A stretch of 36,766 nt of DNA from Pseudolabrys sp. (lineage in GTDB: Bacteria; Pseudomonadota; Alphaproteobacteria; Rhizobiales; Xanthobacteraceae). Shown piece after piece: positions 4,466 through 29,425 of the stretch (the stretch's first letter is position 1; each line of letters begins with the position of its first letter). The position numbers were made by a program, and so were the translations under genes. The notes beneath the pieces are model-generated. The model had not been told where the DNA came from. It saw only the letters and a program-made list of their open reading frames with translations, and made no database searches. The stretch spans positions 1 to 36,766 of the forward strand of contig JAUSBQ010000448.1 in NCBI GenBank assembly GCA_030651965.1, given 5' to 3'.

Positions 4466-7012
4466 GTGTCGGCCGCGCCCCGGCAAATTTTTTTCACCCC
4501 GATGAAGCAAGCAAGCGATCAAGCAATGCACCAATTGAAAACGCAGCCATTGCCGTCAAAAGCCCGTGAGTCGCACGAGGCCGACGGCGAACTGCGCGAC
4601 GCCATTCTGGCCAAGCTGACCTACAGCCTCGGCAAAAGCGTCAACTCCGCGACCGACAATGACTGGTATCAAGCGACCGCTCTGGCGGTGCGCGACCGCG
4701 TCGTCGACGTCTGGATCCAGTCGCGCCGCGAGGCCAAGCGGTTGAAGAAGCGGCGGGTCTACTACCTGTCGATCGAATTTCTTATCGGCCGGCTGCTGTT
4801 CGACACCTTGACCAATATGCGTCTGGTGGAGCCGACGCGCCGCGCGCTGGCCGGCATGGGCGTCGATCTCGAGCGCCTGCGCAACGGCGAGCCCGACGCG
4901 GCGCTTGGCAATGGCGGCCTCGGCCGGCTGGCGGCGTGCTTCATGGACAGCATGTCGGCGCTCGGCATTCCGGCCTATGGCTACGGCATTCGCTACGAGA
5001 ACGGTCTGTTCGAGCAGCGCATCGTCGATGGCTGGCAGCACGAGGTGCCGGAGGACTGGCTCGCCAACGGCAATCCGTGGGAGTTCATCCGCGCCGACAC
5101 CAAAATCCCGATCGGCTTCGGCGGCTCGGTGGAATTTGTCGGCGACACCGAAGCGACGATGCGCGCGGTGTGGATGCCGGCGGAGATCGTGCTGGCGGTG
5201 CCCTACGATACGCCGATCGCGGGCTGGCGCGGCCGCCACGCCAACGCGCTGCGGCTGTGGTCGGCGCGCGTCGCAGACCCCATTCATCTCGCCACCTTCA
5301 ATGAAGGCGATCTGGTCGGCGCGACGGCGGCGCGAGCGCGAGCCGAGGCGATTTCGCGCGTGCTCTATCCCAATGACGGCACCGCCGTCGGCCAGGAGTT
5401 GCGGCTTCGGCAGGAGTATTTCTTCACCTCGGCGACGTTGCAGGACCTGACCAAGCGTCACTTGCAGGAATTCGACAGCCTCGAAAATCTTGCCGACCAG
5501 GCCGCGATCCAGCTCAACGACACGCATCCGGCGATCGCGGTCGCCGAATTGATGCGCATTCTGGTCGACGAGCATGAGATCGCCTGGCCGAAAGCCTGGG
5601 CCATCACGCGCGCGACTTTGAGCTACACCAATCATACGCTGCTGCCGGAAGCGCTCGAAAGCTGGCCGGTCGATCTGCTCGGCCGCCTGCTGCCGCGCCA
5701 TCTTCAGATCATCTACACGATCAACTTGATTCATCTGCAGGACATCGAGAAGCGCGGGCTCAATAGCCCGGACTTCATCGCAGCCGTGTCGCTGGTCGAC
5801 GACACCGGCGGCGAACGGCGCGTGCGCATGGCGCATCTGGCCTTTGTCGGCACCCATTGCGTCAACGGCGTCTCGGCCCTGCACACCGGCCTGTTGCGAG
5901 AGACGGTGTTTCACGACCTGGTCAGGGCGACGCCGGACAGCGCGCCGACCCGCGTCATCAACAAGACCAACGGCATCACCTTCCGGCGTTGGCTTTACGA
6001 GGCAAACCCGCCATTGACCGCGCTCCTCGTCGATGTGCTCGGCGAGCGCGTTCTCGACGATCCGGGTTGTCTCAAGGAGCTGGAGAAATACGCCAGCGAC
6101 GAGAATTTCATCGCGCGCTACGAATATGCGCGCACCGCCAACAAATCGAAACTCGCCGGCCTGTTGCAGGTGAAGACCCGCGTTCGGGTCGATCCGCATG
6201 CGATGTTCGACGTGCAGATCAAGCGCGTGCATGAATACAAGCGGCAGCTGCTGAATCTGCTGGAGACCATCGCGCTCTATCAGGACATCCGCGAGCGGCC
6301 GCAGGACGACTTCGTGCCGCGCGTGAAGATATTTGCCGGCAAGGCGGCGGCGAGCTACGAGCGCGCCAAGCTGATCATCAAGCTCGCCGGCGATATCGGC
6401 CAGACGGTCAACAACGATGCCGTCGTCGCCGGACGCCTGAAGCTGGTGTTCGTGCCCAATTACAGCGCCAGCCTTGCCGAAGCGATCATCCCGGCCGCCG
6501 ATCTGTCCGAGCAGATTTCGACCGCCGGCATGGAAGCCTCCGGCACCGGCAACATGAAACTGGCCTTGAACGGCGCCATCACTATCGGGACTTTGGACGG
6601 CGCCAATATCGAAATCTGCGACCATGTCGGCCGCGACAACGTCGTCATCTTCGGCATGACCGCCGCCGAAGTCACCGCGCGCGTGCAGGCAGGCTTTACC
6701 GGCAACGAGGCGGCGGCCGCGTCGCCGCGCCTGACACGCGTGCTGGAGAGCCTCGCGGCGGGCGAATTCTCGCCGGACGATCCCGACCGCTATGCCTCGA
6801 TCGTCGGCGCGCTGCGCGGTTTCGACCGCTTCATGGTCGCCGCCGATTTCGACAGCTATTGGGACGCGCAACGCACGGTCGACCGGCTGTGGCGCACGCC
6901 GCATGCGTGGTGGCGCGCCAGCATTCTCAATACCGCGCGCATGGGCTGGTTCTCGTCCGACCGCACGATCCGCGAATATGCCCGCGAAATCTGGAACGTG
7001 CCGGTGGCCTGA
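4466..7012 (+). CDS. glgP: Glycogen/alpha-glucan phosphorylase
   Basis: Cytoplasmic GT35 phosphorylase that releases glucose-1-phosphate from the non-reducing ends of alpha-1,4-glucans using phosphate and PLP. At 848 residues it has the family's full length. Seen motifs include GNGGLGRLAACF, NDTHPA, TNHTLLPEA, HEYKRQLLN, KIFAGKAA and the PLP-binding EASGTGNMKLALNG, with the Schiff-base Lys at about 698. The start is uncertain: GTG 4466 has a weak GGTAAGG upstream, and ATG 4502 or 4526 are alternatives in a poorly conserved N-terminus. It is the first plus-strand gene of the glucan/trehalose locus. Its stop (7010-7012) directly abuts the stop of the convergent malQ with no base between, so the two transcripts must overlap at their 3' ends. 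Confidence 0.97.
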   Translation: MSAAPRQIFFTPMKQASDQAMHQLKTQPLPSKARESHEADGELRDAILAKLTYSLGKSVNSATDNDWYQATALAVRDRVVDVWIQSRREAKRLKKRRVYYLSIEFLIGRLLFDTLTNMRLVEPTRRALAGMGVDLERLRNGEPDAALGNGGLGRLAACFMDSMSALGIPAYGYGIRYENGLFEQRIVDGWQHEVPEDWLANGNPWEFIRADTKIPIGFGGSVEFVGDTEATMRAVWMPAEIVLAVPYDTPIAGWRGRHANALRLWSARVADPIHLATFNEGDLVGATAARARAEAISRVLYPNDGTAVGQELRLRQEYFFTSATLQDLTKRHLQEFDSLENLADQAAIQLNDTHPAIAVAELMRILVDEHEIAWPKAWAITRATLSYTNHTLLPEALESWPVDLLGRLLPRHLQIIYTINLIHLQDIEKRGLNSPDFIAAVSLVDDTGGERRVRMAHLAFVGTHCVNGVSALHTGLLRETVFHDLVRATPDSAPTRVINKTNGITFRRWLYEANPPLTALLVDVLGERVLDDPGCLKELEKYASDENFIARYEYARTANKSKLAGLLQVKTRVRVDPHAMFDVQIKRVHEYKRQLLNLLETIALYQDIRERPQDDFVPRVKIFAGKAAASYERAKLIIKLAGDIGQTVNNDAVVAGRLKLVFVPNYSASLAEAIIPAADLSEQISTAGMEASGTGNMKLALNGAITIGTLDGANIEICDHVGRDNVVIFGMTAAEVTARVQAGFTGNEAAAASPRLTRVLESLAAGEFSPDDPDRYASIVGALRGFDRFMVAADFDSYWDAQRTVDRLWRTPHAWWRASILNTARMGWFSSDRTIREYAREIWNVPVA

Positions 7013-8770
7013 TTATTGGCCGCGGCCGTTTTCCGCGAAAGCCTGCGCCACCCGTTGCAGGCCGGGATGCGAGCCGAGGTCCTCGACATCGACGGGCAGC
7101 TTGCGCCGCCAGTTCGGATGCTCGTCGACGGTGCCGGGAATATTGATCTGCTCGACGACATCGAGAATATCGTCGAGGCCGACCGTGACCAGCCGCGACG
7201 GCGTTTGCGCCAGGACGGCGGCGACGGCGGCAATGTCGTCGGGTGCGTATGACGGCGCACGCTCGGTCAGTATCCAGCGCAATGTCTCCCGCGCATGCGC
7301 GCGCGCCTCCTCGGTCTCACCGGGATCGATGCCGATCGTGTGCCTGGTCGCCAAGTCGTCGCCGATAAACCAGCCGCGAAATGTCGGCAGGTCGTGGGTG
7401 TTGAAGGTGGCGAGCGCTTCGGCCGGATAGGTTTCCGGCTGGCGGAAGCGGCCATCGTGCTCGCGCTCGAACAGCATCACGCGATAGGTCCACAGGCCCC
7501 AGCGCGCCATCGTTTCGCGAAAGCCGTCCGGCACGGTGCCGAGGTCCTCGCCGATGACGATGCAGCGCGCGCGGTTGCTCTCTTCGGCAATGACGCGCAG
7601 CACCGCTTCGAACGGATAGCGGACGTAGGCGCCCTCGCGCGCGCTCAAGCCGCGCGGGATCAGATACATGCGGTTGAGGCCGAGCACGTGATCCATGCGC
7701 ACGGCGCCGGCATGGCTCATGGCCGCGCGCATCAACTGGCGCAGCGGCTCGAAGTCGTTGATGGCCAGCGTATGCGGATTGAACGGCGCCAGCCCCCAAT
7801 CCTGCCCTCCGGTGTTGAACTCATCGGGCGGCGCGCCGATCGACAGACCGGCGAGCACGGCATCCTGCCGGCTCCAGGCGTCGGCGCCGTGCGGATCGAT
7901 GCCGACGGCGAGATCGGTGTAGAGGCCGATCGACATGCCGAGTCGATGCGATTCATCCTTGCAGGCCTGCAACTGCCGCGCCGCGACCCATTGCATGAAC
8001 TCCTGAAACTCGCACTCCGCGCGATGATCGGCACGCAAGCCGAGCAGCGTCGCGCTGTCCGGCTGACGCCAGGGCTCGGGCCATTGCGGCCAGGGCAAAG
8101 GCGCGTGCCGCATGCGCAGCACTTCAAAGCAGGCTAAGCGCAACAGGCCGTCGCCCTGCTCGGCGCGGTAGGCCTCGAAATCGGCGCGCCGCGCCGGCGC
8201 CGCCGCGGAATCGAAAGCGGCATAGGCGGCGCGCAGGCCGGCGAGCTTGGCGCCCGCGACCGCGGGATAGTCGATCAGCGCGGCGGCGCGCGCGGCCGCG
8301 ATATCGCCGGCGAGCCCGGCCGCCTCGACGCCGGGAAACTCCGGAATCGCGGCGACATCAATATAAAGGACGTTGAGAAACAGCCGGCTGTTCGGCGCGT
8401 AGGGACTGGCCTGCCCGGCCCGGTCCGGAAACAGCGCATGCAACGGGTTGAGGCCGACGGCGGAGGCCCCGCGCGCCGCCGCCAGCGTCATCAGCCGGTT
8501 GAGATCGCCGAAATCGCCATGTCCCCAGTTGCGACATGACCGAAGGGCATAAAGCTGGACCGCCAGGCCCCACACCCGTCGCCCATCGCCCTGAAAGGCG
8601 CGCACCGGCGCGGCATCGACGCCCGGGGGCGCCGGCGCTGCCTGGGCGCCCGCCAGGGCCGTCATCAGCCGCCTCAAGGTTTCGGGGCTGACGGCATGCC
8701 AATGGCCGAAAACGTCATAATAGCCCGGTTCGATGCCCAATTTGTCGGCGGCGACTTCAATTTCATTCAT
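7013..8770 (-). CDS. malQ: 4-alpha-glucanotransferase (amylomaltase)
   Basis: GH77 enzyme that transfers alpha-1,4-glucan segments between chains, disproportionating malto-oligosaccharides and releasing glucose. The catalytic residues are visible: nucleophile Asp in RMDHVLGL (D360), acid/base Glu in IGEDLGTVP (E408) and the stabilising Asp in NTHDLPTFRGW (D460). SPYAPNSR near residue 120 is also typical. At 585 residues it is shorter than the E. coli enzyme, with a reduced N-terminal region. ATG 8770 is preferred; an in-frame TTG at 8791 would add seven residues. It is the only minus-strand gene in the locus, divergent from glgE (77 bp apart) and tail-to-tail with glgP. It may feed glucan chains of suitable length to GlgP, GlgE or TreY. 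Confidence 0.95.
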   Translation of the reverse strand: MNEIEVAADKLGIEPGYYDVFGHWHAVSPETLRRLMTALAGAQAAPAPPGVDAAPVRAFQGDGRRVWGLAVQLYALRSCRNWGHGDFGDLNRLMTLAAARGASAVGLNPLHALFPDRAGQASPYAPNSRLFLNVLYIDVAAIPEFPGVEAAGLAGDIAAARAAALIDYPAVAGAKLAGLRAAYAAFDSAAAPARRADFEAYRAEQGDGLLRLACFEVLRMRHAPLPWPQWPEPWRQPDSATLLGLRADHRAECEFQEFMQWVAARQLQACKDESHRLGMSIGLYTDLAVGIDPHGADAWSRQDAVLAGLSIGAPPDEFNTGGQDWGLAPFNPHTLAINDFEPLRQLMRAAMSHAGAVRMDHVLGLNRMYLIPRGLSAREGAYVRYPFEAVLRVIAEESNRARCIVIGEDLGTVPDGFRETMARWGLWTYRVMLFEREHDGRFRQPETYPAEALATFNTHDLPTFRGWFIGDDLATRHTIGIDPGETEEARAHARETLRWILTERAPSYAPDDIAAVAAVLAQTPSRLVTVGLDDILDVVEQINIPGTVDEHPNWRRKLPVDVEDLGSHPGLQRVAQAFAENGRGQ

Positions 8771-8816
8771 TTCGGCGTCGATTCCGGCCAATTCGGGAAC
8801 TTAAACATGTCGCACC

Positions 8817-8831
8817 GGTTCTATAAGAACC
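8817..8831. promoter_or_regulatory. Perfect dyad operator candidate between malQ and glgE
   Basis: GGTTCT (8817-8822), ATA, AGAACC (8826-8831) form a perfect 15-bp dyad in the 77-bp space between the divergent malQ and glgE starts. TATAAG (8822-8827), inside the dyad, matches the -10 consensus at five of six positions on the glgE strand, with only a weak -35 (TTAAAC at 8801-8806, 15-bp spacing). A protein bound here would block that promoter and could also affect malQ. The cognate regulator is not identifiable. Confidence 0.5.
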
Positions 8832-8847
8832 CGATTGCAGGAAGAAA

Positions 8848-10866
8848 ATGAAGCGGCACAATGCAATGGAAGGTGCCGCCATGACCGTGAGGCGTATTCC
8901 CCTGGATGGAACTCTCGACATTACCCCCACCGATCCGACCGGCCCCCGCTTTCGCATAGAAGACATTTTTCCTTGCGTGGATGGCGGACGATATGCGGTT
9001 AAACGCATAGCCGGCGAAATGGTCGATGTCTGGGCGGATATTTTTCGCGAGGGCCACGATGTCCTCGCGGCGGCGGTGCTGTGGCGCGCGCAGGATGCGT
9101 CAGATTCAGGCGATTGGCACCGCGAGCCGATGGTTCATGTCAACAACGACCGCTGGCATGGCAGCTTCACGCCGCCGCAGCCAGGCTGGTACCTGTTCGC
9201 CATTGAGGCCTGGACCGATCAATATGCGACCTGGCGCAAGGAGTTTCTGCTCAAGCAGGCTGCCGGCCAGAATGTTTCCCTTGAAGCGCGCGAAGGACAT
9301 GAATTGCTCACGCAGTTGATGCCGTCCGACAGCTATACGCGCGGCATCGCCGAGGCGGCGGCGCATCTGTTCGCCTCGACCGGCCAGCACGCCGCGCTGC
9401 TCGACGAGACCTTGGCCGCGACAATGGCCGCGAGCGCCGCGCGCCCCGACCTCAACCGCAGCGATGCCGTGCCGCTGGTCGCCGACCGCGAGTTGGCGCG
9501 GGCCGGCGCCTGGTACGAAATGGTGCCGCGCAGCCAGAGCAAAATCTCGGGACAGCACGGCACGTTCCAGGATTGCATCGCGCGCGTTCCGGAAGTGGCG
9601 GAGCTCGGCTTCGACGTCTTGTACCTGACGCCGATCCATCCAGTCGGCCGCACCAACCGCAAGGGCAAGAACAACGCGGTGAAGGCCGAGCCAGGCGACG
9701 TCGGCAGCTTTTACGCCGTCGGAAACATGAACGGCGGTCATGACTCGATCGAGCCCAAGCTCGGCACGCTCGACGACTTCCGCGCGCTGGTCGCGGCCTG
9801 TCACGCGCACAAGATGGAAATCGCCCTCGACTTCGCGGTGCAGTGCGCGCCCGACCATCCCTGGCTGACGGAGCACCCGCAATGGTTCCGCCAGCGTCCG
9901 GACGGCACGATCAAATACGCCGAAAACCCGCCGAAAAAATACCAGGACATCGTCAACCCGGACTTCAACTGCGACGACCGCATCGGCCTGTGGAAGGCGC
10001 TGCGCGACGTGCTGCTGTTCTGGGTCGATCAGGGCGTGCGCATTTTCCGCATCGATAATCCGCACACCAAGCCGCTGGCATTCTGGGAATGGGCGATCCG
10101 CGAAATCCAAGCGCGCGACCCCGGCGTCATCTTTCTCGCCGAAGCCTTCACCCGGCCGAAGGTGATGAAGGCGCTCGCCAAGCTCGGCTTCACGCAATCC
10201 TACACCTATTTCACTTGGCGCACTGAGAAGGCCGAAATCCAGGCTTATCTGAGCGAGCTCACCGGCTATCCGGAACGCGAATACTACCGGCCGAATTTCT
10301 TCGTCACCACGCCGGACATCCTGCCGGTGCAGTTGCAAAGCGGCGAGACCTGGATGTTCAAGTCGCGCGCCGCGCTGGCGGCGACCCTGTCGGGCAATTA
10401 CGGCATCTATAACGGCTTCGAGTTGATCGAGCACGAACCGCTGCCGGGCCGCGAGGAATACATCAACTCTGAAAAATACGAGATCAGGACGCGCGACTGG
10501 AACAAGCCCGGCAACATCAAGGACTATCTCAAGCGCATCAACACGATCCGCCGCGCCAATCCCGCGCTGTTGCAGACCGCCGAGCTGCGCTTCCTGCAAA
10601 CCAACCACGACACCGTCATCGGTTTCGTCAAGGAATCGACGACGGGCGACAACGCCATTGCGGCGGCGATCGCGCTCACCAACGGCCAGAAGGATTTCTG
10701 GCTGCACTTCGGCGATATCCAGATCGGCCCCGCCGGCGCCAAACGCCCGGTGCGGCTGATCGAAAATCTCGTGACCGGCGAACGCCATTGGCTCGAATGG
10801 AACGGCATCCGCCTGCGCATCGATCCCGCCGCCGATCCCGCCCTCCTTTTCCGTTGTCAGGTTTGA
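8848..10866 (+). CDS. glgE: Alpha-1,4-glucan:maltose-1-phosphate maltosyltransferase
   Basis: GH13_3 enzyme that extends alpha-1,4-glucan by transferring maltosyl units from maltose-1-phosphate with release of phosphate. At 672 residues it has normal length. An N-terminal beta-sandwich and helical insert (about 1-215) precede the barrel. The nucleophile is Asp 403 in RIFRIDNPHTKP and the acid/base is Glu 432 in IFLAEAFTRP. These are spaced 29 residues apart, as I recall for the Streptomyces enzyme. The GlgE-specific phosphate-site segments KYAENPPKKYQDI and RTRDWNKPGN are present. AGGA five bases before ATG 8848 supports the start; ATG 8881 also has GGAAGG upstream and is possible. Only 7 bp separate it from treS-mak, which makes its donor substrate. 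Confidence 0.97.
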   Translation: MKRHNAMEGAAMTVRRIPLDGTLDITPTDPTGPRFRIEDIFPCVDGGRYAVKRIAGEMVDVWADIFREGHDVLAAAVLWRAQDASDSGDWHREPMVHVNNDRWHGSFTPPQPGWYLFAIEAWTDQYATWRKEFLLKQAAGQNVSLEAREGHELLTQLMPSDSYTRGIAEAAAHLFASTGQHAALLDETLAATMAASAARPDLNRSDAVPLVADRELARAGAWYEMVPRSQSKISGQHGTFQDCIARVPEVAELGFDVLYLTPIHPVGRTNRKGKNNAVKAEPGDVGSFYAVGNMNGGHDSIEPKLGTLDDFRALVAACHAHKMEIALDFAVQCAPDHPWLTEHPQWFRQRPDGTIKYAENPPKKYQDIVNPDFNCDDRIGLWKALRDVLLFWVDQGVRIFRIDNPHTKPLAFWEWAIREIQARDPGVIFLAEAFTRPKVMKALAKLGFTQSYTYFTWRTEKAEIQAYLSELTGYPEREYYRPNFFVTTPDILPVQLQSGETWMFKSRAALAATLSGNYGIYNGFELIEHEPLPGREEYINSEKYEIRTRDWNKPGNIKDYLKRINTIRRANPALLQTAELRFLQTNHDTVIGFVKESTTGDNAIAAAIALTNGQKDFWLHFGDIQIGPAGAKRPVRLIENLVTGERHWLEWNGIRLRIDPAADPALLFRCQV

Positions 10867-10873
10867 AGCACTT

Positions 10874-13800
10874 ATGAACGTAAAGCCTACCATCGATCAC
10901 GGCACGCCAACCGCCACGCCGGCAGACGACGAACTGTGGTTCAAGGACGCCATCATCTATCAGCTTCACGTCAAGGCGTTTTCCGACAGCAATGGCGACG
11001 GCATCGGCGACTTCGCCGGCCTAACCGAACGGCTGGACTATCTACGCGATCTCGGCATTACGGCGATCTGGCTGCTGCCGTTCTATCCGAGTCCGGGCCG
11101 CGACGACGGCTACGACATTGCCGATTACGGCGACATCAATCCGCAATTCGGCACGATGAAAGACTTCAAGCGCTTCATGGTGGAAGCCAAGAAGCGCCGC
11201 CTGCGTGTCATCACCGAGCTTGTCGTCAACCACACGTCCGATCAGCACGACTGGTTCAAGCGCGCGCGGCGCAGCCCTGCGGGCTCCAGCGCGCGGGACT
11301 GGTATGTCTGGAGCGACACCGACCAAAAATTCCTCGAAACGCGGATCATCTTCACCGACACCGAAAAATCCAACTGGGCCTGGGATGCCGACGCGAAAGC
11401 CTATTACTGGCACCGCTTCTTCTCGCACCAGCCGGATCTCAACTTCGATAATCCGCGCGTGGTCAGCGCGGTGACGCAAGTGATGAAGCGCTGGCTCGAC
11501 ACCGGCGTCGATGGCTTCCGGCTCGATGCCGTGCCGTATCTGATCGAACGCGAAGGCACCAGCAACGAGAATTTGCCGGAAACGCACGAGATCATCAAGA
11601 AATTGCGCGCCGAGATCGAGAGCTATGCGCCCGGCAAGGTGCTGCTCGCCGAAGCCAATATGTGGCCGGAGGACGTGCAGCAATACTTCGGCGATGGCGA
11701 TGAATGCCACATGGCCTATCACTTCCCGCTGATGCCGCGCATTTACATGGCGATCGCGCAGGAAGATCGCTTTCCGATCGCCGACATCATGCGGCAGACG
11801 CCGGAAATCCCGGCCAACTGCCAGTGGGCGATGTTCCTGCGTAATCATGACGAACTGACGCTCGAAATGGTCACCGACGCGGAACGTGATTATCTGTGGT
11901 CGACCTACGCGGCCGATCCGCGTGCGCGCATCAATGTCGGCATCAGACGCCGGCTGGCGCCTTTGATGGACAATGACCGGCGCAAAATCGAGTTGATGAA
12001 CTCGATCCTGATGTCGATGCCGGGTACGCCGATCATCTATTACGGCGACGAAATCGGCATGGGCGACAACATCTACCTCGGCGATCGCAACGGCGTTCGT
12101 ACCCCGATGCAATGGACGCCCGACCGCAATGGTGGTTTCTCCCGCGCCGACCCGGCGCAGCTTTACCTGCCCTGCATCATGGATCCGGTTTACGGCTATT
12201 CCAGCCTCAATGTCGAAGCGCAGAGCCGTTCGGCATCGTCGCTGCTGAGCTGGATGAAGCGCCTCATCAGCGTGCGCAAGTCCAGCAGGGTGTTCGGCCG
12301 CGGTACACTCACTTTCGTGCGGCCGGCGAACCGCGCCGTGCTGGCCTATGTGCGCCAGATGGACGACGACGCCATTCTCTGCGTCTGCAATTTGTCCCGC
12401 ACCGCGCAGGCGGTCGAACTCGACCTGGCAACGTGGAAAGGCCGCATCCCGCAGGAAATGCTGGGGCGCGTCAATTTCCCGCGCATCGGCGACCTGCCTT
12501 ATATGGTGACCCTGCCGCCCTTCGGCTTCTTCTGGTTTCAGTTGCACAAGGAAGCCGAGGACGTCGCGCAACAGTCGCTCCCGCGCGAGGTCTCGACCCT
12601 CGTGCTCGGCCCCGACTGGGCCAAGATGGTTTCCGGCTGGACGTTGCGCACGTTCGAACTCGACGTTCTGCCCGGCTATATCGGCATCCGGCGCTGGTTT
12701 GCCGACAAGACCTCGCGCAGCCTGACCGCCAAGGTTTCGGCAGCAATCCCGTTCGAGAACGGGCCCGACCGCTTTGTCGCTGTCATCGCCGATGTCGGCG
12801 GCAATCACGGCACCAGCCGCTATTTCCTGCCGTTGACGATCCGCTGGACCCGCTACACGTCCATCGACCGCGCACCCGCTTGCGTGCTCGCCGCCGTGCG
12901 CCGCGGCCCCCGTGAAGGAACGCTGCTCGATGCCGTCGCCGAGCCGGAATTCGTCAACGCCCTGCTGACCAAAATTCACGCCAATGAAACCGTGGGCGCT
13001 GACGGCAAGTACCTCCACTTCCGTCCGACCGCGACGTTCACGTCACAGGCATTGCCCGACGTGAAGACAGTCAAGGCCATTGACGGCGAGCAGTCCAACA
13101 GCAGCGTCATCGTCGACGGTCAGTACGTCATCAAGATATTGCGCCGCATCGCGCCCGGCGTTCATTCCGAGATCGAGGTTGGCCGCTTCCTGACCGACGA
13201 AACCTCATACAAGAATGCGCCAGCCCTCCTCGGCGCAATCGAGCTGGAGGAAGGCGATGATTGCAGCGCGCTGGCCGTGGTGCATGCCTTTGTCGAAAAC
13301 CAGGGCGATGCATGGAGTCTGGTGCTGGGTTCCTTGGAACGCCTGATAGACACGCAGCAACTCAATCTCGCCGAACCGATCGAAGAGACACCTGATACTT
13401 TGGTTCTATTGCAGCGCCTGCGCCAGATCGGCCGCCGCACCGCCGAGTTGCATCAAGCTCTTGGCAGCCGCAATGATATCGAAGCCTTTGCGCCGGAGCC
13501 GATTGGCGCCGGCGACATCGCACAGTGGGCCGATACGCTCAATGCTCGCGCGAAAGAGCGTTTCGATATGCTCGCCGACCGCCTGAGCACTCTGCCGGAG
13601 CCGGCGCGCGAGTTGGCCAAGCAATTGCTCAACAATAGCGCGGCGATCACTGCGTATATCGACTCATGGCGTGACATCGTGATCGACGGCATCAAGATTC
13701 GCCACCATGGCGACTTCCATCTCGGACAGATCCTTATTTCCAAGGACGACGCCTATCTGCTCGACTTCGAAGGTGAGCCGCGCCGTTCGCTTGAGGAGCG

Positions 13801-14167
13801 CCGTCACAAGGCACCGCCAGCACGAGACGTCGCCGGCATGGTCCGCTCGATCGACTACGCCATCAGCGCGGCGATCGATCACTCGACCGATCTCAGTCCG
13901 GAAGACCTCAGCGTACTGCGGCCATTGATGCAGGCTTGGGGCGACAGGCTCACCGCCGCGTTCTGGGACAGCTACCGCGAAACCCCAGCCGACGTCGCTC
14001 TGTGGCCGGCCAAAGAGGAACAGGCGCAGCAGTTGCTCGATATCTTCCTGCTCGAGAAAGCGCTCTATGAAATCGAGTACGAACTCACCAACCGTCCGGC
14101 CTGGCTGCATATTCCGCTGGACGCGACGCTGCGCATTCTCCAACAGCGCGGAGTGATCGTCTCATGA
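10874..14167 (+). CDS. treS: Trehalose synthase-maltokinase fusion (TreS-Mak/Pep2)
   Basis: A 1097-residue bifunctional protein. The N-terminal GH13_16 domain (about 20-560) interconverts trehalose and maltose; catalytic residues are Asp 218 ([10 protein letters not shown]), Glu 260 ([11 protein letters not shown]) and Asp 326 (NHDELTLEM). The C-terminal part (about 590-1090) is a maltokinase that phosphorylates maltose with ATP to maltose-1-phosphate. It carries the kinase-like HHGDFHLGQ (Asp 947) and LLDFEGEP (Asp 964) motifs. The fusion channels trehalose to the GlgE substrate. It follows glgE by 7 bp and its stop overlaps the glgB start as ATGA (14164-14167). Separate treS and mak genes occur in mycobacteria, and fusions like this are known from several other bacteria. 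The ATG has only a weak ribosome binding site. Confidence 0.96.
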
Positions 14168-16074
14168 GCAAACTATCGGCCGAAGCCACGATGGCGGATG
14201 AACGCCCGGTCCTTTCGGACTTCGATCTCTACCTGCTGGGCGAAGGCAACCAACTGCGGCTTTACGACAAGCTCGGCGCGCATCCGATGACGCTCGATGG
14301 CGTGAGCGGCGTGGCCTTCGCGGTCTGGGCGCCAAATGCGCAACGCGTCAGCGTTGTCGGCGACTTCAACGCCTGGGACGGCGGGCGGAACGCCATGCGC
14401 GTGCGCGGCAACGGCTACTGGGAGATTTTCGTGCCCGGCGCGCAGGCAGGCGACAAGTACAAGTACCAGATCGTCTCCCAGTCTGGACATTTGCTGCCGC
14501 TGAAGTCCGATCCAGTCGCCTTTGCAGGCGAAATGCGCCCTTTGACTGCCTCTATCGTGGTCGATGCCACGACGCTACCGCAGCCATCGCGGGTGCGCGA
14601 GAATATCAATGCGCATGATCAACCGATGTCGATCTATGAAGTTCATCTCGGGTCTTGGCGTCGCAATGCCATCGAAGGGGGCCGCTGGCTGACCTATCGT
14701 GAGCTTGCCGCGGAACTGCCGGCCTATGCCGCCGATATGGGCTACACCCATGTCGAACTGCTGCCGGTGTCGGAACATCCGTTTGACGGCTCATGGGGCT
14801 ATCAGCCGACCGGAATGTTTGCGCCGACCAGCCGCTTCGGCACGCCGGAAGATTTCGTGTTCCTCGTCGATGCCCTGCACAAAGCCGGACTCGGCGTGCT
14901 GCTCGACTGGGTGCCGGGACATTTTCCCGACGATCCGCATGGGCTGGCGAATTTCGACGGCACCGGCCTGTACGAACACGCCAACCCGATGCAAGGCCGC
15001 CATCTCGACTGGGGCACGCTGATTTATAATTACGGGCGTCCGGAGGTGACCAACTTTCTGGTATCGAATGCGCTGTTCTGGCTGGAGCGCTACGGCGTCG
15101 ATGGCCTGCGCGTCGATGCCGTCGCGTCGATGCTCTATCTCGACTACAGCCGGCCATCCAATGCCTGGATTCCGAACAAGCATGGCGGCCGCGAGAACAT
15201 CGAAGCCGTCGATTTCCTGCGCCGCACCAACACAGAACTATTCAAGCAGTTTCCACACGCCACCACCGCAGCCGAGGAATCGACCTCCTGGCCGCAGGTG
15301 TCGCGGCCGGTCGACTGGGGCGGTCTCGGCTTCGGCTACAAGTGGAACATGGGGTGGATGAACGACACTTTGGACTACATGTCCAAGGACCCGATCCATC
15401 GCCGGCACCATCACGGCAAGATCCTGTTCGGCCTGCACTATGCGTTTTCGGAAAACTTCATCCTGCCGCTGTCGCATGACGAAGTGGTACACGGCAAACG
15501 CTCGATCCTCGGCCGCATGCCGGGGGATGCGTGGCAGAAGTTCGCCAACCTGCGCGCCTATTATTCATTCATGTTCGGACATCCGGGCAAGAAGCTGATG
15601 TTCATGGGCGCCGAATTCGCCCAGGACAATGAATGGAATCACGATACCAGCCTGCCTTGGCATTTGCTGGAAAAGCCCGAACACGCCGGCATCCAACGCC
15701 TGGTGCGCGACCTCAACAAACTCTACCGCGACACACCCGCGCTGCATGCGCTTGACTGCGACCCGTCGGGATTCGAGTGGCTGGTGACGGACGACGCCGA
15801 CAACAGCGTTTTCGCCTGGCTGCGCAAGGGCCGCGATGCGTCGGAGCGCTGCGTCGTCGTGGTGAATTTCACGCCGCAGGTCATTAACGGGTACCGGCTG
15901 CGCGTGCCTTACGCCGGCAAGTGGCGCGAGGCGCTCAATTCGGATTCCGCGATCTACGGCGGCAGCAATGTCGGGAACGCCGGGACGGTCTCGACCGTTG
16001 CCACGTCTGACAGTCAGGAGCTTCATATTGTTCTCCCACCGCTTGCTGCCCTCTTTTTCATTCCTGAGCTCTAA
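14164..16074 (+). CDS. glgB: 1,4-alpha-glucan branching enzyme
   Basis: GH13_9 enzyme that introduces alpha-1,6 branches into linear glucan. One N-terminal CBM48 module is visible ([20 protein letters not shown], about 45-130). The extra N1 domain of the E. coli protein is absent, explaining the 636-residue length against about 728. Catalytic residues are Asp 318 ([12 protein letters not shown]), Glu 371 (TAAEEST) and Asp 439 ([11 protein letters not shown]). The Ala/Ser/Thr-rich C-terminus includes a loose stretch before [12 protein letters not shown]. The start overlaps the treS-mak stop by 4 bp. Its 3' end overlaps glgX by 47 bp under the start chosen there. It most likely branches the GlgE product. 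Confidence 0.97.
16016..16020 (+). promoter_or_regulatory. Ribosome binding site deciding the glgX start, inside glgB
   Basis: AGGAG at 16016-16020 lies seven bases before TTG 16028, within the coding end of glgB. No ATG occurs in the glgX frame between 15968 and the conserved glycogen-debranching N-terminus ([11 protein letters not shown]). The well-spaced site makes TTG 16028 the best start and implies translation coupled to glgB. Confidence 0.6.
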
Positions 16075-18139
16075 CGGGAAGCCGACCGCCGGCTCGCCCT
16101 ATCCGCTTGGCGCGACCTGGGACGGCCGCGGCACCAATTTCGCGCTGTTCTCCGCCAATGCGACGAAGGTCGAACTGTGCCTGTTCGACAACGAGGGCAA
16201 ACGCGAGATTGAGCGCATTGCCATGCCGGAACGCACCGACGATGTCTGGCATGTGTATCTGTCGCATGTCGCCCCTGGCCAGCTTTACGGATACCGCGTC
16301 CACGGGCCGTACGAGCCGGAGGCCGGTCACCGGTTCAACCCGCACAAGCTTCTGATCGACCCGTACAGCAAGCAGCTTGGCGGCCACTTCAGTTGGAGCG
16401 ACGCGCATTTCGCCTATCGCGCCGGCGCCAAGCAGCAGGACCTCGCCTTCGACCGGCGCGACAACGCGCGCACGATGTACAAATCCGTGGTCGCCGATTT
16501 CGCCCATCCGACCAACGACCGGCGGCCGCAGGTGCGCTGGGAAGACACCATCATGTACGAAGCACATGTCAAAGGGCTGACGCACCAGCGGCAGGATTTG
16601 CCGGAGAGCGCCCGCGGCACCTACCGCGGCCTGTCGCAGCCCGGCACAATCGCGCATCTGCGCAAGCTCGGCGTCACGTCGATCGAACTGCTGCCGATCC
16701 ATGCATTTCTCGACGACCGGCATCTGCTCGACAACGGCCTGCGCAACTACTGGGGCTACAACACGCTGAGTTTCTTCGCGCCGGAAGCGCGCTACGCGCC
16801 CGGCAACGAGATCAATGCGTTGCGCTCGACGGTCGCCACGCTGCATGACGCCGGTATCGAGGTTATCCTCGACGTCGTCTATAACCACACCTGCGAAGGC
16901 AACCATCTTGGGCCAACGCTTTGCTATCGCGGCATCGACAACGCCTCCTACTACTGGCTGATGCCGGACGAGCCGCGCTATTACGACGATTTCACCGGCA
17001 CCGGCAATTCGCTCAAGCTTGCGCATCCGCGCGTGTTGCAGATGGTGATGGACTCGCTGCGGCACTGGGTCGAGGCCTATCACATCGACGGCTTCCGCTT
17101 CGATCTCGCGTCCACATTGGCGCGCGCGCCCGCCTTCGACCGCAACGCGCCGTTCCTGGCCGCGATCCGGCAGGATCCCGTGCTGGCCAACGTCAAGCTG
17201 ATCGCCGAGCCGTGGGACATCGGCGCCGGCGGCTATCAGGTCGGCGGCTTCCCCAATGGCTGGTCGGAATGGAACGACGTCTATCGCAAGACCTTGCGCC
17301 GGTTCTGGCGCGGCGAAGGCGGGCTCGCCGGCGATCTGGCGCGCGCCATGACCGCCTCGCCGATGCAGTTTCACCACGATGGGCGCGGGCCCCGCGCCAG
17401 CGTCAATCACGTCACCGTGCATGACGGCTTCACGCTGACCGATCTGGTCAGCTACGAAAACAAGCACAACGACGCGAACGGCGAGGACAATCGCGACGGG
17501 TCAGACGACAACACCAGCATCAATTGCGGTGTCGAAGGGCCGACCGACGACGAGGGTATTCTCGCCTTCAGGCGGCAGCTTCGCCGCAATCAACTCGCCT
17601 GCCTGATGCTGGCGCAGGGCGTGCCCCTGATGCTGGCCGGCGATGAGGTCAACAACTCGCAGTCTGGCAACAACAACACCTATTGCCAGGACAACGAAAC
17701 CGGCTGGGTCGACTGGTCGGCGCTCGGCTCCGAGGACGACCTGACCGCCTTTGTCGGGGAATTGACCGGCTTGCGCCGCCGCTTTCCGCAGATCGGCCAG
17801 GACCGCTGGCTGGAAGGACAGCGCGACGACGGCTCCTATGGCGTGAAGTGGCTGACCCCTGCCGGCCAGGAAATGTCGGAGGACGACTGGAATTTCCCCG
17901 ACAGCCGCTTCGTCTCCTATGTGCTGGCGGCGCCGGAGCAGAACGGCGCGCCTTTGTTCGTCATCATCAACGGCGCCGACGAAGACCTGGAGATTGTTTT
18001 TCCGGAATGGCCGGACGCGACCCATTGGCGCAATGTGCTCGACACCGCGATGGGCGAGCCGCAGGCGATATTGGGCGACACCGGATCGCCGTGGACCGTG
18101 CGGGCGCGCGCGGTGCTGGCTTTCGCAGGTGAGCCGTGA
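16028..18139 (+). CDS. glgX: Glycogen debranching enzyme (isoamylase type)
   Basis: GH13_11 enzyme that cleaves alpha-1,6 branches of glycogen, freeing malto-oligosaccharides. The sequence opens with a CBM48-like [20 protein letters not shown] segment. The catalytic residues follow: Asp 359 (GFRFDLAST), Glu 394 (LIAEPWDIG) and Asp 466 (VTVHDGFTL), numbered from TTG 16028. The [11 protein letters not shown] and [14 protein letters not shown] segments are typical of GlgX/TreX. With TTG 16028 the protein is 703 residues; ATG 15968 would add 20 residues that look unlike the family. In trehalose pathways this role is called TreX, and its position before treZ and treY fits that: it supplies the linear chains TreY needs. 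Its stop overlaps the treZ start as GTGA. Confidence 0.95.
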
Positions 18140-19890
18140 CCGCGAAGCCAAGCTTCGGCCCGCTTCTCACCAAGCGCGGCGTGACCTTCCGGCTCTGGGC
18201 GCCGGCGGCAAGCCGGGTAAGCCTGATGCTTGACGCGCCGCACGACATGCCGAAGAACGGCGACTGGTTCGAACTGCACGTACCGAAGGCAAAAGCCGGC
18301 ACGCGCTATCGCTTCAAAATAGATGACGACATCGAAATCGCCGACCCAGCCTCGCACTTCCAGCCCGACGACGTGCAAGGATCCAGCGAGGTCATCGACC
18401 ATCACTACGACTGGCAGGCCCCCGACTGGAAAGGTCTACCCTGGGAACAGGCGATCTTTCTCGAAGCCCATGCCGGCACCTTCACGCGCGAAGGCACTTT
18501 CCGCGCCATGATCGAGCGGCTCGACCACTTGGTCGCCACCGGCATCACCGCGCTCGAACTGATGCCGGTCGCCGATTTCCCCGGCCGCTGGAACTGGGGC
18601 TATGACGGCGTGCTGCTGTATGCGCCGGATTCAACCTACGGACGGCCGGAAGACCTGAAGGCGCTGATCGATGCCGCGCATAGTCGCGGGCTGATGGTCT
18701 TCCTCGACGTCGTCTACAATCACTTCGGCCCGGACGGCAATTATCTCGGCCGCATCGCGCCATCGTTTTTTTCCGATGCGCAAACGCCTTGGGGCGCCGC
18801 GATCAACTACGAAGTTGACGAGGTGCGCGCCTTCGCCATCGAAAACGCCGTGCACTGGCTGCGCGACTACCGTTTCGACGGCCTGCGCCTCGATGCCGTG
18901 CATGCCATCGCCACGCCGGGCGAGGTTCATATGCTGACAGACTTGAGCATGGCTGTCGGCGAACTGGCCACGAAGACCGACCGGTATATTCATCTGGTGC
19001 TGGAGAACGACGACAACCTTGCCGCCGTGCTTGCGCCGGAGGAAGACCCGCCAGCCGGACGCTACCGCGCCCAGTGGAACGACGACTATCACCACGCCTG
19101 GCATGTGTTTCTCACCGGCGAGACCGCCGGCTATTACAGCGACTATGCCGACGCCCAAAAACACATCACCCGCACGCTCGCGGAGGGCTTCGCTTTTCAG
19201 GGCGAAGCCTCGCCGCACCGTGGCGGCGCCTTGCGCGGCGAACCGAGCGGTTCTTTGCCGCGTACCGCCTTCGTCAACTTCCTGCAAAACCACGACCAGA
19301 TCGGCAACCGCCCGCTCGGCGAACGCCTGGCCATGCTGGCAAAGCCGGAGGCGGTGGAAGCGGCGCTGGCGGTGCTGCTGTTGCAGCCGTCGCCGCCGAT
19401 GTTGTTCATGGGCGAGGAATGGAGCGCGACGGAGCCGTTTCCGTTCTTCTGCGATTTCAGAGGCGATCTGGCGCAGGCCGTGCGCGATGGCCGCAAAAGG
19501 GAGTTCGCCGAGGCTTACGCCCAGCGTGGCGACGCAATCCCCGATCCGATCGCGCAAGAGACGCGCGACGCCGCTGTCCTCGACTGGGATGCACGCAGCC
19601 ATCCGGTTCATGCCCAACGCCTGGCCTTCACGCGCTCGCTGCTCGCCGCGCGCAAGAAGTGGATCGTGCCCTTGCTGGCCGGCATCAAAGGGAAAGGCGA
19701 GGTCGCGTTCTCGTCCAATCCGTTGACGGCGCGATGGCAAGCCGGCGACAAGACGCTGCTGCTGCTCGCCAACCTGTCGGACAATCGGCACGAACGGCCG
19801 AACGATCTGCAATGGGGCCAGCCTGTCTGGGGCGGCAGTCCGCCGCGCGACCTGCCGCCTTGGTCGGTCTATGCCGCGATCGGAGGCTGA
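18136..19890 (+). CDS. treZ: Malto-oligosyltrehalose trehalohydrolase
   Basis: GH13_10 enzyme that releases free trehalose from maltooligosyl-trehalose made by TreY. At 584 residues it has the normal size. A short N-terminal sandwich domain (FGPLLTKRGVTFRLWAPAA) precedes the barrel. Catalytic residues: Asp 253 (GLRLDAVHAI), Glu 290 (LVLENDDN) and Asp 387 (LQNHDQIGNRP). The YDGVLLYAPDSTYG and MLFMGEEWSATEPF segments are typical of TreZ. The GTG start at 18136 overlaps the glgX stop by 4 bp, and treY begins 4 bp after its stop, so glgX, treZ and treY are probably one transcriptional and translational unit. Confidence 0.96.
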   Translation: MTAKPSFGPLLTKRGVTFRLWAPAASRVSLMLDAPHDMPKNGDWFELHVPKAKAGTRYRFKIDDDIEIADPASHFQPDDVQGSSEVIDHHYDWQAPDWKGLPWEQAIFLEAHAGTFTREGTFRAMIERLDHLVATGITALELMPVADFPGRWNWGYDGVLLYAPDSTYGRPEDLKALIDAAHSRGLMVFLDVVYNHFGPDGNYLGRIAPSFFSDAQTPWGAAINYEVDEVRAFAIENAVHWLRDYRFDGLRLDAVHAIATPGEVHMLTDLSMAVGELATKTDRYIHLVLENDDNLAAVLAPEEDPPAGRYRAQWNDDYHHAWHVFLTGETAGYYSDYADAQKHITRTLAEGFAFQGEASPHRGGALRGEPSGSLPRTAFVNFLQNHDQIGNRPLGERLAMLAKPEAVEAALAVLLLQPSPPMLFMGEEWSATEPFPFFCDFRGDLAQAVRDGRKREFAEAYAQRGDAIPDPIAQETRDAAVLDWDARSHPVHAQRLAFTRSLLAARKKWIVPLLAGIKGKGEVAFSSNPLTARWQAGDKTLLLLANLSDNRHERPNDLQWGQPVWGGSPPRDLPPWSVYAAIGG

Positions 19891-19894
19891 TGCC

Positions 19895-22621
19895 ATGCCG
19901 GCCGCAGTTCCGCTCGCGACCTATCGCATTCAATTGACCAAGGACTTCACCTTCGACGACGCAGCAACGCTGGTGCCCTATCTGCGCGAACTCGGCATCA
20001 CGCATCTCTATGCTTCGCCGTTTCTCAAAGCCCGTCCCGGCAGCACCCACGGCTATGACATTGTCGATCACGACAGACTCAACCCCGAGCTTGGCGGCGA
20101 CGATGGCTTCGCCCGCCTGAGCGCCGCGCTCAAGAGCAACAGCGTCGATCTGATCCTCGATTTCGTGCCCAATCACATGGGCGTCGGCCAGTCCGATAAT
20201 AACTGGTGGCTGGATGTACTCGAATGGGGCCAGCGCAGCGCTTATGCCAACGCCTTCGATATCGACTGGGAGGCACTGCCTTATCGCCGGCTTCCCGGGG
20301 TGCTGCTGCCGATCCTCGGGCGGCCCTACGGCGATGCACTGCAAAGCGGCGAGATCGCGCTCAGATTTGACGCTGAAGCCGGCAGCTTTGCCGCATGGCA
20401 TTTCGATCACAAACTGCCCATCAACCCGCAGCGCTACGGCGAGATCATTCGCGCGCTGGTCACAGCGGCGCATGCGGAAAGCGAGCCGGCCGGGCAACAG
20501 CTCATCGCGCTGGCGCGTGAGCACCGCAACCCGCACACGCCGTCCTATCGCGACGCCGCCGCGCTGAAGCAGCGCCTGGCAGCGATCGACGGCGCGTCGG
20601 CTATCATTGAACGCGGCCTGCCGGCCTATCGTCCCGACAGCGAAGCCGGCGCCACCAGTCTGCACCGGCTGCTTGAGCGGCAGAACTATCGGCTCGCCTA
20701 TTGGCGCGTCGCGTTCGCCGCAGTGAACTATCGGCGCTTCTTCGACATCAATGACCTCGCCGGCTTGCGCGTCGAGCAGCCGGCGGTGTTTCGCGGCATT
20801 CATCCGCTGGTGCAGCGCTTGATCCGCGAGGACAAGTTGCAGGGACTGCGCCTCGATCACATTGACGGTCTGCGCGACCCGGCGCAATACGCCAAGCGGC
20901 TGCGGCGGATGATCCAGAAGGCGCGCGGCGATAGCCAACGCAGCGGGCCGTTCTATGTGGTCGTGGAAAAGATCCTCGCCGACGGCGAGGACATGCCACG
21001 CTTTACCGGCGTTGCCGGCACCACCGGCTATGAATGGCTTAACGTCATTTCCCGTGTGCTGGTCGACGGCAAGGGGATCGAGGCGCTGGAGCGGACATGG
21101 CGCGCCTTCACCGGCGAGCAGACGTCCTTTCCGGCCATGCTAGATACTGCCAAGCGCCGCGTCATCGACACGATGCTGGCGAGCGAATTCACCGTGCTCA
21201 GCCGCGCGCTGGCGCGCATCGCCGCCGGCCATTTCAGCACGCGCGACTTCACGCTCAACCGGCTGCGCGAGGCACTGCAACTCTATGTGCTCGCCTTTCC
21301 GGTCTACCGCACTTACGTGACCGCCGGCGGCGCTTCGCAAGCCGATCGCGCCACCATCGACGCCGCGATTGCCGATGCGCGCGGCCGCTGGGCCGGACCG
21401 GACCCGGAGATTTTCGATTTCCTGCGCGATACCGTCACACTCGATCTCGCCGGGCGCGACGGCTACAGCGCGGCGCGGGTGCGCAATTTTGCGCTCAAGC
21501 TGCAGCAGTTCACCGGACCGCTGATGGCCAAGGCGATGGAGGACACCGCCTTCTACCGCGACCACCGGCTGCTGGCGCTCAACGAAGTCGGCGGTCATCC
21601 CGATGCGCATGCGCTTGAGCTTGCCGAATTTCACGCGCAGCTAGGGGCCCGCGCCACCGATTGGCCGGACAGCCTCACCGCCACCGCGACGCATGACACC
21701 AAGCGCGGCGAAGACGCGCGCGCCCGCATCCTGGCGCTGTCGGAAATCCCCGATGATTGGCAAGCGGCGGTGGCCGACTGGCGCAGCCGCAACACCGCTC
21801 TGTTCCAACACGTCAATGGCAAACGCCGGCCGAGCAAGGCGCACGAGTATATGTTGTACCAAGCGCTCATCGGCGTCTGGCCGGGGGCGCCCGGCGTCGA
21901 TCTGGTCGAACGTGTTCAGGCCTATGCGCTCAAGGCGGCGCGCGAAGGCAAGCAGGAAACGAGTTGGACCAATCCGGACGAGCTTTACGAGAAGGCGCTC
22001 AACGACTATGTCGCCGCGTTGCTCGATCCTTCAGTCTCGGCGGGCTTTCTCGGTTCGATTGAGAAATTTTCCGCGCGCACGTCCCTGCTCGGCGCGCTCA
22101 ACGGGTTGTCACAACTGGCGCTGAAGGTCCTGATGCCGGGCGTGCCGGACTTCTTCCAGGGTACCGAATTCTGGGACCTGTCGCTGGTCGATCCCGACAA
22201 CCGGCGGCCGGTTGATTTCGACGCGCGCCGGCAAGCACTGACTGAGAATCGCCACGACTGGGCTTCTCTCGCCGACAACTGGCGCGATGGACGCATCAAA
22301 CTGTCGCTGATGCGCCGCCTGCTGGCGATCCGGCAGGAATTCGCCGACCTGTTTGCGCGCGGCGATTATGAGCCGGTCGCGGTCACCGGGCCGCAGGCGG
22401 CCCATGTCATTGCCTTTGCGCGGAGTTGGAAAGGCGACCGGCTTGTCATTGCCATCGGCCGCCATTTCGCCACGCTGACCGAGGGTGGCATGAGGTGGCC
22501 TTCGGCTATCGACGCCAAAATCGACTTCGCCGCCGAAGCCCAATATATCGATCTGCTCGGCAACACCGGCACGGCCAGCCTGTGCCGGCATATTCCGGTG
22601 AGCATTCTGCGCAAGGCATAG
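19895..22621 (+). CDS. treY: Malto-oligosyltrehalose synthase
   Basis: GH13_26 enzyme that converts the reducing-end alpha-1,4 bond of a malto-oligosaccharide into the alpha,alpha-1,1 bond of trehalose. At 908 residues it is in the family range. The N-terminus LATYRIQLTKDFTF and YASPFLKARPGSTHGYD are hallmarks. Catalytic residues are Asp 321 (GLRLDHIDGL), Glu 358 (VVVEKILADGE) and Asp 601 (TATHDTKRGEDAR). ATG 19895 is chosen because GGAGG lies at 19882-19886, eight bases upstream; an upstream in-frame start at 19871 would overlap treZ. It is the last gene of the glucan/trehalose run and is convergent with the RraA-like gene after 16 bp. Confidence 0.97.
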   Translation: MPAAVPLATYRIQLTKDFTFDDAATLVPYLRELGITHLYASPFLKARPGSTHGYDIVDHDRLNPELGGDDGFARLSAALKSNSVDLILDFVPNHMGVGQSDNNWWLDVLEWGQRSAYANAFDIDWEALPYRRLPGVLLPILGRPYGDALQSGEIALRFDAEAGSFAAWHFDHKLPINPQRYGEIIRALVTAAHAESEPAGQQLIALAREHRNPHTPSYRDAAALKQRLAAIDGASAIIERGLPAYRPDSEAGATSLHRLLERQNYRLAYWRVAFAAVNYRRFFDINDLAGLRVEQPAVFRGIHPLVQRLIREDKLQGLRLDHIDGLRDPAQYAKRLRRMIQKARGDSQRSGPFYVVVEKILADGEDMPRFTGVAGTTGYEWLNVISRVLVDGKGIEALERTWRAFTGEQTSFPAMLDTAKRRVIDTMLASEFTVLSRALARIAAGHFSTRDFTLNRLREALQLYVLAFPVYRTYVTAGGASQADRATIDAAIADARGRWAGPDPEIFDFLRDTVTLDLAGRDGYSAARVRNFALKLQQFTGPLMAKAMEDTAFYRDHRLLALNEVGGHPDAHALELAEFHAQLGARATDWPDSLTATATHDTKRGEDARARILALSEIPDDWQAAVADWRSRNTALFQHVNGKRRPSKAHEYMLYQALIGVWPGAPGVDLVERVQAYALKAAREGKQETSWTNPDELYEKALNDYVAALLDPSVSAGFLGSIEKFSARTSLLGALNGLSQLALKVLMPGVPDFFQGTEFWDLSLVDPDNRRPVDFDARRQALTENRHDWASLADNWRDGRIKLSLMRRLLAIRQEFADLFARGDYEPVAVTGPQAAHVIAFARSWKGDRLVIAIGRHFATLTEGGMRWPSAIDAKIDFAAEAQYIDLLGNTGTASLCRHIPVSILRKA

Positions 22622-27872: not shown

Positions 27873-27901
27873 GTCTTTTCCTCATTTTCGCTTTTGTTGC
27901 A

Positions 27902-28639: not shown

Positions 28640-28648
28640 CAGCACTCC

Positions 28649-29398: not shown

Positions 29399-29409
29399 GA
29401 GGCACCGTA

Positions 29410-29425
29410 TTGAATGTACATTCAA
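29410..29425. promoter_or_regulatory. TetR operator candidate, proximal dyad
   Basis: TTGAATGTACATTCAA is a perfect 16-bp palindrome of form TTGAA-N6-TTCAA, 12 bp upstream of the hydratase start. A second copy of the same architecture lies 22 bp away, two helical turns, as expected for cooperative TetR-family dimers. The gene for such a regulator is immediately upstream. Confidence 0.7.

Follow-up and report, generated by a model that had tools for sequence, protein, structure and literature searches.

A gene cluster for the interconversion of trehalose and branched alpha-glucan behind a probable stress promoter in Pseudolabrys

Introduction

Why would a soil bacterium encode, within a single run of genes, the enzymes that build branched alpha-glucan from trehalose and also those that turn the glucan back into trehalose? 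This question is raised by a locus of Pseudolabrys sp. (assembly GCA_030651965.1, contig JAUSBQ010000448.1), of which a stretch of 36,766 nucleotides (nt), here called the window, was analysed. A preliminary description of this DNA had placed glgE, a treS-maltokinase gene and glgB next to glgX, treZ and treY, and had proposed that both directions are made together as a closed cycle. Our analysis indicates that the six genes (positions 8848-22621) probably constitute one transcription unit, controlled by the general stress response, that converts trehalose to branched alpha-glucan and back. Cited papers are given by PMC number.

Results and Discussion

Six genes in one directon

Gene identities were called from NCBIfam matches above the curated cut-off, from Pfam and from phmmer searches against solved structures. 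These confirmed the six assignments given above, and all enzymes match established families, in agreement with the earlier remark that each of them is known. The genes lie on the plus strand and span 13.8 kb: glgE, alpha-maltose-1-phosphate maltosyltransferase (8848-10866; PF11896 183 bits, cut-off 25; best phmmer match to solved GlgE structures E 3.4e-161), treS/mak, a fusion of trehalose synthase and maltokinase (10874-14167; TIGR02456 917 bits, TIGR02457 499 bits), glgB, branching enzyme (14164-16074; TIGR01515 921 bits), glgX, debranching enzyme (16028-18139, in an open reading frame (ORF) that opens at ATG 15968; TIGR02100 1011 bits), treZ, maltooligosyltrehalose trehalohydrolase (18136-19890; TIGR02402 671 bits), and treY, maltooligosyltrehalose synthase (19871-22621; TIGR02401 998 bits). 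Stops and starts had been described as overlapping or nearly touching from glgE to treY, and within the set adjacent genes indeed either overlap or are separated by no more than 7 nt. The gap of 7 nt separates glgE from treS, overlaps of 4 nt join treS/mak to glgB and glgX to treZ, the glgB and glgX ORFs overlap, and treZ and treY either overlap by 20 nt or, with a TreY start at ATG 19895, are 4 nt apart.

Candidate stress promoter in front of glgE

The spacer of 77 nt between glgE and the divergent malQ gene (from 8770) holds the sequence GGAAC-N17-GTT (8796-8820, plus strand, 52 nt before glgE), which agrees with the published EcfG motif GGAAC-N17-20-GTT (PMC6599016). A motif of this type was located 48-102 nt before the estimated glgE start in all ten glgE-bearing genomes of the genus, with a box spacing of N17 in nine and N16 in one and with little conservation of the bases around the boxes. 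The motif had been suggested by the window itself, and the independent test is therefore the result for the relatives, of which nine out of nine carry it. Random 110-nt stretches of the same neighbourhoods matched in 147 of 50,000 cases, and 18 further matches were found in 731,694 strand-bases. The window alone shows no enrichment (three motifs found, 2.94 expected), so that the evidence lies in the fixed place of the motif in the relatives. A phyR-nepR-ecfG locus (L104) is present in the same genome, with the motif before both nepR and phyR. Where otsA belongs to the operon the motif was also found, 54-86 nt upstream of this gene in four out of four genomes, two of which are near-identical. 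In Sphingomonas melonis, glgX, treZ and malQ are among the top EcfG-dependent genes (PMC6599016), and treS of Bradyrhizobium diazoefficiens (blr6767) was reported in the EcfG regulon (PMC8092242). Joint expression of the six genes is likely because they form one directon with a conserved EcfG-type motif before glgE. The earlier proposal that both directions are made together is supported in this respect, with co-transcription itself being predicted from sequence.

Some further observations were made on these promoter regions. Locus L104 holds a Ku gene in the same stretch as phyR, nepR and ecfG, and EcfG-type motifs occur in both orientations between the phyR and nepR genes. A perfect 6-3-6 palindrome, GGTTCTATAAGAACC, at 8817-8831 overlaps the downstream promoter box, and a near match was seen by eye in genome G211 only. 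A scan for sigma-70 promoters returned one candidate versus 3.4 expected and was of no use. Our literature search returned no paper joining EcfG with glgE and none joining Pseudolabrys with trehalose and glycogen.

Both halves are intact

Catalytic residues were assessed by locating the motifs in the window proteins and then checking the respective columns in alignments with relatives; for the GH13 enzymes the catalytic positions of this family were used. The residues are identical in GlgB (45/45), GlgX (41/41), TreZ (32/32), TreY (33/33), MalQ (36/36) and the maltokinase Mak (47/47), and the pyridoxal phosphate lysine of GlgP (SGTGNMK motif) is kept in 21 out of 21 sequences. For TreS identity was found in 44 of 47, and the three gaps come from one gene cut by a contig end and from two kinases that lack the TreS part. 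The window GlgE has the nucleophile D403, the acid/base E432 and a third conserved Asp, D490; nucleophile and third Asp are identical in 49/49 aligned proteins and the acid/base Glu in 46/49. Reference positions were taken from PMC5076824 for GlgE, where Asp-394 is the nucleophile and Glu-423 the acid/base of the Streptomyces coelicolor enzyme, and from PMC4306142 for Mak. The gene sets of both pathways are thereby present, with TreS, maltokinase and GlgB encoded together with GlgE on the one side, and GlgX, TreY and TreZ with their catalytic residues on the other.

When the window is compared with G211, the ratio of nonsynonymous to synonymous substitution rates (dN/dS) ranges over 0.09-0.20 for all eight genes, i.e. 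the six and the neighbouring glgP and malQ; the comparison with G202 gives 0.14-0.33. Relative to G211, treZ, treY, malQ and glgP have roughly double the dN of glgE, treS/mak, glgB and glgX; the same contrast is smaller compared to G202. Given the intact catalytic residues and the low dN/dS, neither half is decaying in the Pseudolabrys lineage, and both are under purifying selection. A broken half in the window was considered as a separate possibility and is ruled out by these residues and ratios.

Trehalose has its own input

The preliminary description had spoken of a closed cycle, unless enzyme-level control or changing trehalose demand sets the direction. The genome is available as a draft of 468 contigs and about 90% complete. 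The searches for otsA and glgA proposed at that time were carried out. Two pieces of otsA were found at contig edges. Each of the ten genus genomes with glgE has this gene as well, and overall it was present in 60 out of 64 genomes searched. In four genus genomes (G213, G220, G209 and G199) out of ten in which the sequence behind treY is readable, otsA follows treY on the same strand, at a distance of 40-88 nt to the open frame and of at most 148 nt to the start estimated from the alignment. In G196, which belongs to another family, otsA is located in front of glgX-treZ-treY-glgE. Since otsA in the genome gives trehalose an input of its own, the cycle is not closed.

Neither glgA nor glgC is among the identified genes of the window; genome-wide, glgA (PF08323) gave no match in the draft, with no search made for glgC. 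No glgA was found in any of the ten glgE-bearing genomes of the genus, including the single-contig genomes G202 and G209, and a loss of glgA through draft incompleteness is unlikely for this reason. Out of 24 genus genomes only G204 carries glgA, and this genome is without glgE. In the sample of the order described below, 12 of 41 glgE genomes had no strong glgA match, where weak matches of 22-24 bits (e.g. in G004 and G064) were not counted. Because no GlgA was found, the glucan is most likely made by GlgE.

Proposed mechanism

We propose that EcfG would transcribe the unit from the motif at 8796-8820, while OtsA and a putative phosphatase would supply trehalose. TreS would convert trehalose to maltose and Mak would phosphorylate the maltose to maltose 1-phosphate at the cost of one ATP each, which GlgE would polymerise and GlgB would branch. 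The GlgE glucan would in this way act as an osmotically inert store of trehalose. On demand, GlgP would trim the outer chains, GlgX would debranch, and TreY together with TreZ would release trehalose. The direction would be set at the enzyme level, by substrate pools and by GlgP trimming before GlgX acts, and not by opposite transcription of the two halves. The individual steps are those of established pathways (PMC11046441, PMC8084333), and their operation in this organism is proposed from its gene content.

Several points weigh against this scheme. Of 40 genomes from outside the genus, only one has the strict motif within 110 nt of glgE. It was not found close upstream of the separate treZ-treY genes of G201 nor at the otsA of the genome itself, and among 14 fetched non-operonic otsA loci three carry it, two of them within 110 nt. 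The Sphingomonas glgX site scored 5.11 versus the cut-off of 10 used in that paper (PMC6599016), and the EcfG effect on glgX may be indirect there. The absence of glgA from one draft genome is weak in itself, and its weight is carried by the genus pattern. In B. diazoefficiens stress trehalose comes from OtsAB and not from TreYZ or TreS (PMC8092242), and the return flux from the glucan may be minor. Finally, a second EcfG-like motif before glgX (N18, in nine of ten genomes) could separate the halves. As a side result of the otsA counts, the idea that the EcfG motif is a property of all otsA genes was rejected, with 3/14 non-operonic loci and none at the genome's own otsA.

Alternative explanations

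The second motif, GGAAC-N18-GTT (15974-15999, plus strand), lies inside the 3′ end of glgB, and its function is uncertain in this coding context. It leads to the explanation that the two halves have their own promoters, with glgX-treZ-treY transcribed also or mainly from here and thus uncouplable from glgE. The motif occurs at the same place in nine of ten genus genomes with a readable junction, and the Val codon located there is GTT in those nine, though GTT makes up 9.5% of the Val codons in these genes. The spacing falls in the published range of N17-20 (PMC6599016), and the same paper gives the EcfG dependence of glgX-treZ-malQ in Sphingomonas. Conservation is confounded here, however, by the location in coding sequence of related species, and the boxes are N18 apart, unlike at the glgE and otsA sites with their N16-17. 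Overlap of the genes persists, and if both promoters answer to EcfG the halves would still be made together. Either an additional promoter or a side effect of constraint on the coding sequence may account for this site, and we consider independent transcription of the halves unlikely. The end of glgB in general (15950-16074), which overlaps the glgX start, contains many T-ending codons (CTT, GCT, GTT, ATT, CCT), several of which are conserved in the genus.

Two other explanations concern the flux, and both appear even less probable to us. The locus might simply be a trehalose-making one, with TreS (maltose to trehalose) and TreYZ both feeding trehalose. TreS is reversible, and the rhizobial paper PMC8092242, in which the word glgE does not occur, treats TreS and TreYZ as synthesis routes. 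Against this, GlgE, Mak and GlgB lie in the same unit with intact sites. The same paper also cites a treS mutant of B. diazoefficiens in which trehalose was higher and maltose lower, suggesting that trehalose is consumed by TreS in that organism, and in Pseudomonas aeruginosa trehalose amounted to 0.89% of dry weight after deletion of treS/pep2 instead of 0.13% (PMC8084333). We regard a purely trehalose-making function as improbable for these reasons. A true futile cycle, with both arms running at once and ATP burnt at steady state, would fit the fact that all enzymes are encoded together, and a potential cycle of this kind was discussed for P. aeruginosa in PMC8084333. The independent trehalose input via otsA speaks against it, as does the need of GlgX for branches trimmed by GlgP, which is named as a brake in PMC11046441 and PMC8084333, and this explanation is the least credible of all. 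We therefore retain the interconversion of trehalose and glucan by one stress-controlled unit as the preferred explanation.

Distribution in the genus and the order

Co-expression of both halves as one unit had been regarded as the unusual part of this locus, a view that is not borne out by the distribution of the genes. A synteny survey of the order, as proposed in the preliminary description, comprised 199 sampled genomes, with GlgE and TreY counted above cut-off (not counted were a weak GlgE match in G144 and a weak second one in G158, and G194 with its two pieces entered once). GlgE was found in 41 genomes, TreY in 50 and both in 38. The neighbourhoods of all 41 glgE genomes were fetched as far as the contigs reach, and in 24 of them, from eight families, glgE and treY are on the same strand within 25 kb. 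Four of these 24 (G000, G143, G035 and G112) show the order of the window with malQ divergent, 14 have malQ inserted before treY, in three from one family glgE is preceded by treZ and a long treY frame, and three are otherwise different (G017, G109 and G129). Among the genomes with both genes, 14 have them apart or unlinkable; contig ends interrupt at least G157 and G183. Within the genus, ten of the 24 genomes searched (own genome included) have glgE, ten have treY and nine have both, and eight of these nine have the same-strand cluster; in G201 treZ-treY is located elsewhere on the contig in opposite direction. Contig ends truncate the loci of G207 and G199. The GlgE of Pseudolabrys sp. Root1462 (locus L107) shares 79% identity with that of the window.

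The Bradyrhizobium genomes read here resemble the window where contigs suffice, with malQ divergent and glgE-treS/mak-glgB-glgX-treZ-treY in this order, except for G171 and G194. Among those with a canonical GlgE the order was the same in 31 of 34 fetched, the remaining three being cut by contig ends. The enzymes are ordinary, and the arrangement is common among the glgE-bearing genomes of the order. Chance co-location of the genes had also been considered and is ruled out by this recurrence (24/41 in the order, 31/34 in canonical Bradyrhizobium).

Two variants deserve a separate description. The treY frames that precede glgE in G117 (L044, L096), G174 (L050, L102) and G196 (L047, L099) have 1635-1934 residues, a length that would accommodate a MalQ-TreY fusion of the type of NCBIfam NF011077. 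In G171 and G194 (L013, L051) a different glgE locus was found, in which a maltokinase of 540 residues that lacks TreS comes after glgE, with glgX on the opposite strand.

An altered GlgE in one Bradyrhizobium clade

Many Bradyrhizobium genomes differ from the window in having an altered GlgE active site. The first three aligned genomes with the operon (G143, G035 and G112) differed from all others at the acid/base residue; mutation of Glu-423 abolishes activity of the S. coelicolor enzyme, supporting the acid/base role (PMC5076824). A GlgE match was present in at least 155 of 195 Bradyrhizobium genomes searched, and we read 74 of these proteins, namely the 30 best matches, 40 across the lower identity range, G143, G112, G171 and G194. 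Thirty-eight were altered and 36 canonical, numbers that reflect the choice of the sample and are not population frequencies. In all 38 altered proteins (G143, G112, L131-L160 and L161-L166), encoded at the head of the same operon, DNHD[TS]AP replaces DNPHTK, in full A[IVL]DNHD[TS]A instead of RVDNPHTK, and Lys replaces the acid/base Glu; the nucleophile Asp is kept. Identity to the G035 protein is at least 76% in 38/38 altered and at most 72% in the 34 canonical proteins picked from the list, in which at least 97 matches reach 76% identity, 59 of these lying outside the set that was read. The altered proteins form one clade in a quick tree of 79 rows (support of 100 in the Shimodaira-Hasegawa-like approximate likelihood ratio test). 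Their dN/dS (omega) was 0.16 and 0.18 in two sets of genomes compared to 0.125 in canonical ones, indicating purifying selection.

In nine altered genomes with the whole operon, the checked residues of TreS, GlgB, GlgX, TreZ and TreY are kept, as are both Asp residues of Mak. The His of the Mak motif HGDFHLGQ is Arg in 9/9 of them and His in 36/37 canonical genomes, whereas DFEGEP is changed in 9/9 altered but also in 9/37 canonical genomes. These His and Glu residues belong to the active-site region in the structure of mycobacterial maltokinase (PMC4306142). The Mak changes alone are weak evidence, and only the His-to-Arg change is confined to the altered genomes. Two or more matches to PF08323 (glgA-type) were found in 38/38 altered genomes, while 30 of 34 canonical genomes have at least one and 15 of 34 at least two. 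The strict EcfG motif was found in none of the 74 genomes read. A relaxed motif, GGAAC-N-CTT, precedes glgE in 37/38 altered and 27/36 canonical genomes (control 1611 of 31,600 stretches of 290 nt); it is only suggestive, because it was chosen after looking and the genomes are related.

Remodelling or loss of the maltose 1-phosphate arm is apparently possible with the remainder of the operon retained, and the halves thus look separable. It is conceivable, if somewhat doubtful, that the operon is one-way or repurposed in this clade, with GlgE being a maintained protein other than a maltosyltransferase, such as a regulatory or newly catalytic subunit, and with the Mak pocket changed along with it. 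No paper on the altered GlgE showed up among those listed in our literature search, judged by title and beginning of the abstract.

Comparison with known systems

Two-way conversion of trehalose and glucan and its possible futile cycling are already published (PMC8084333, PMC11046441), and the review PMC11046441 states both the conversion and the brake by which GlgX acts on GlgP-trimmed branches. P. aeruginosa is similar to the window in having the same two-way enzymes, a TreS/Mak fusion and glgP apart (PMC8084333). Its genes are arranged in two predicted operons, glgE-treS/pep2-glgB and glgA-treZ-malQ-treY-glgX, where GlgA feeds the system and otsAB is lacking (PMC8084333), whereas Pseudolabrys has one directon, no glgA that was found, and otsA. 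The mycobacterial combination of OtsAB, TreXYZ and TreS-Mak-GlgE-GlgB is likewise similar, since GlgE makes glucan from trehalose and TreXYZ returns trehalose, with OtsA as the dominant trehalose route (PMC11046441). Unlike the window, mycobacteria have an additional input through GlgM according to this review.

Neighbouring genes and gene starts

The preliminary description had glgP and malQ beside the six genes, and both are indeed adjacent: glgP, glycogen/alpha-glucan phosphorylase (4466-7012, plus strand; TIGR02093 1059 bits, PF00343), and malQ, 4-alpha-glucanotransferase, divergent from glgE (7013-8791, minus strand; TIGR00217 395 bits, PF02446). However, glgP is not part of the unit because malQ intervenes on the opposite strand. 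Four of the listed ORF starts are probably too far upstream. For glgP, ATG 4502 is probably the start rather than GTG 4466, and for malQ probably ATG 8770 instead of TTG 8791. The start of glgX is probably TTG 16028, with a ribosome-binding AGGAG just 5′ of it, and that of treY probably ATG 19895, with GGAGG upstream. The called glgP start is covered by a hairpin that resembles a terminator and has seven T in a row (4467-4485); it may terminate the gene upstream or serve as a leader element. Further upstream of glgP a LysR-type regulator is encoded at 2748-3854. The minus strand at 27042-29425 carries a short-chain dehydrogenase gene and two genes that resemble enoyl-CoA hydratases, which probably belong to a separate acyl-CoA pathway.

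Conclusions

The Pseudolabrys locus offers a compact natural case in which glycogen is apparently fed by trehalose, no GlgA was found, and both directions of conversion lie behind one probable stress promoter. Worth following are this probable joint promoter, the missing glgA in the presence of otsA, and the altered GlgE clade. What purpose each half of the operon serves can be asked by comparison with the variants from Bradyrhizobium, where active-site changes are confined to the maltose 1-phosphate enzymes.

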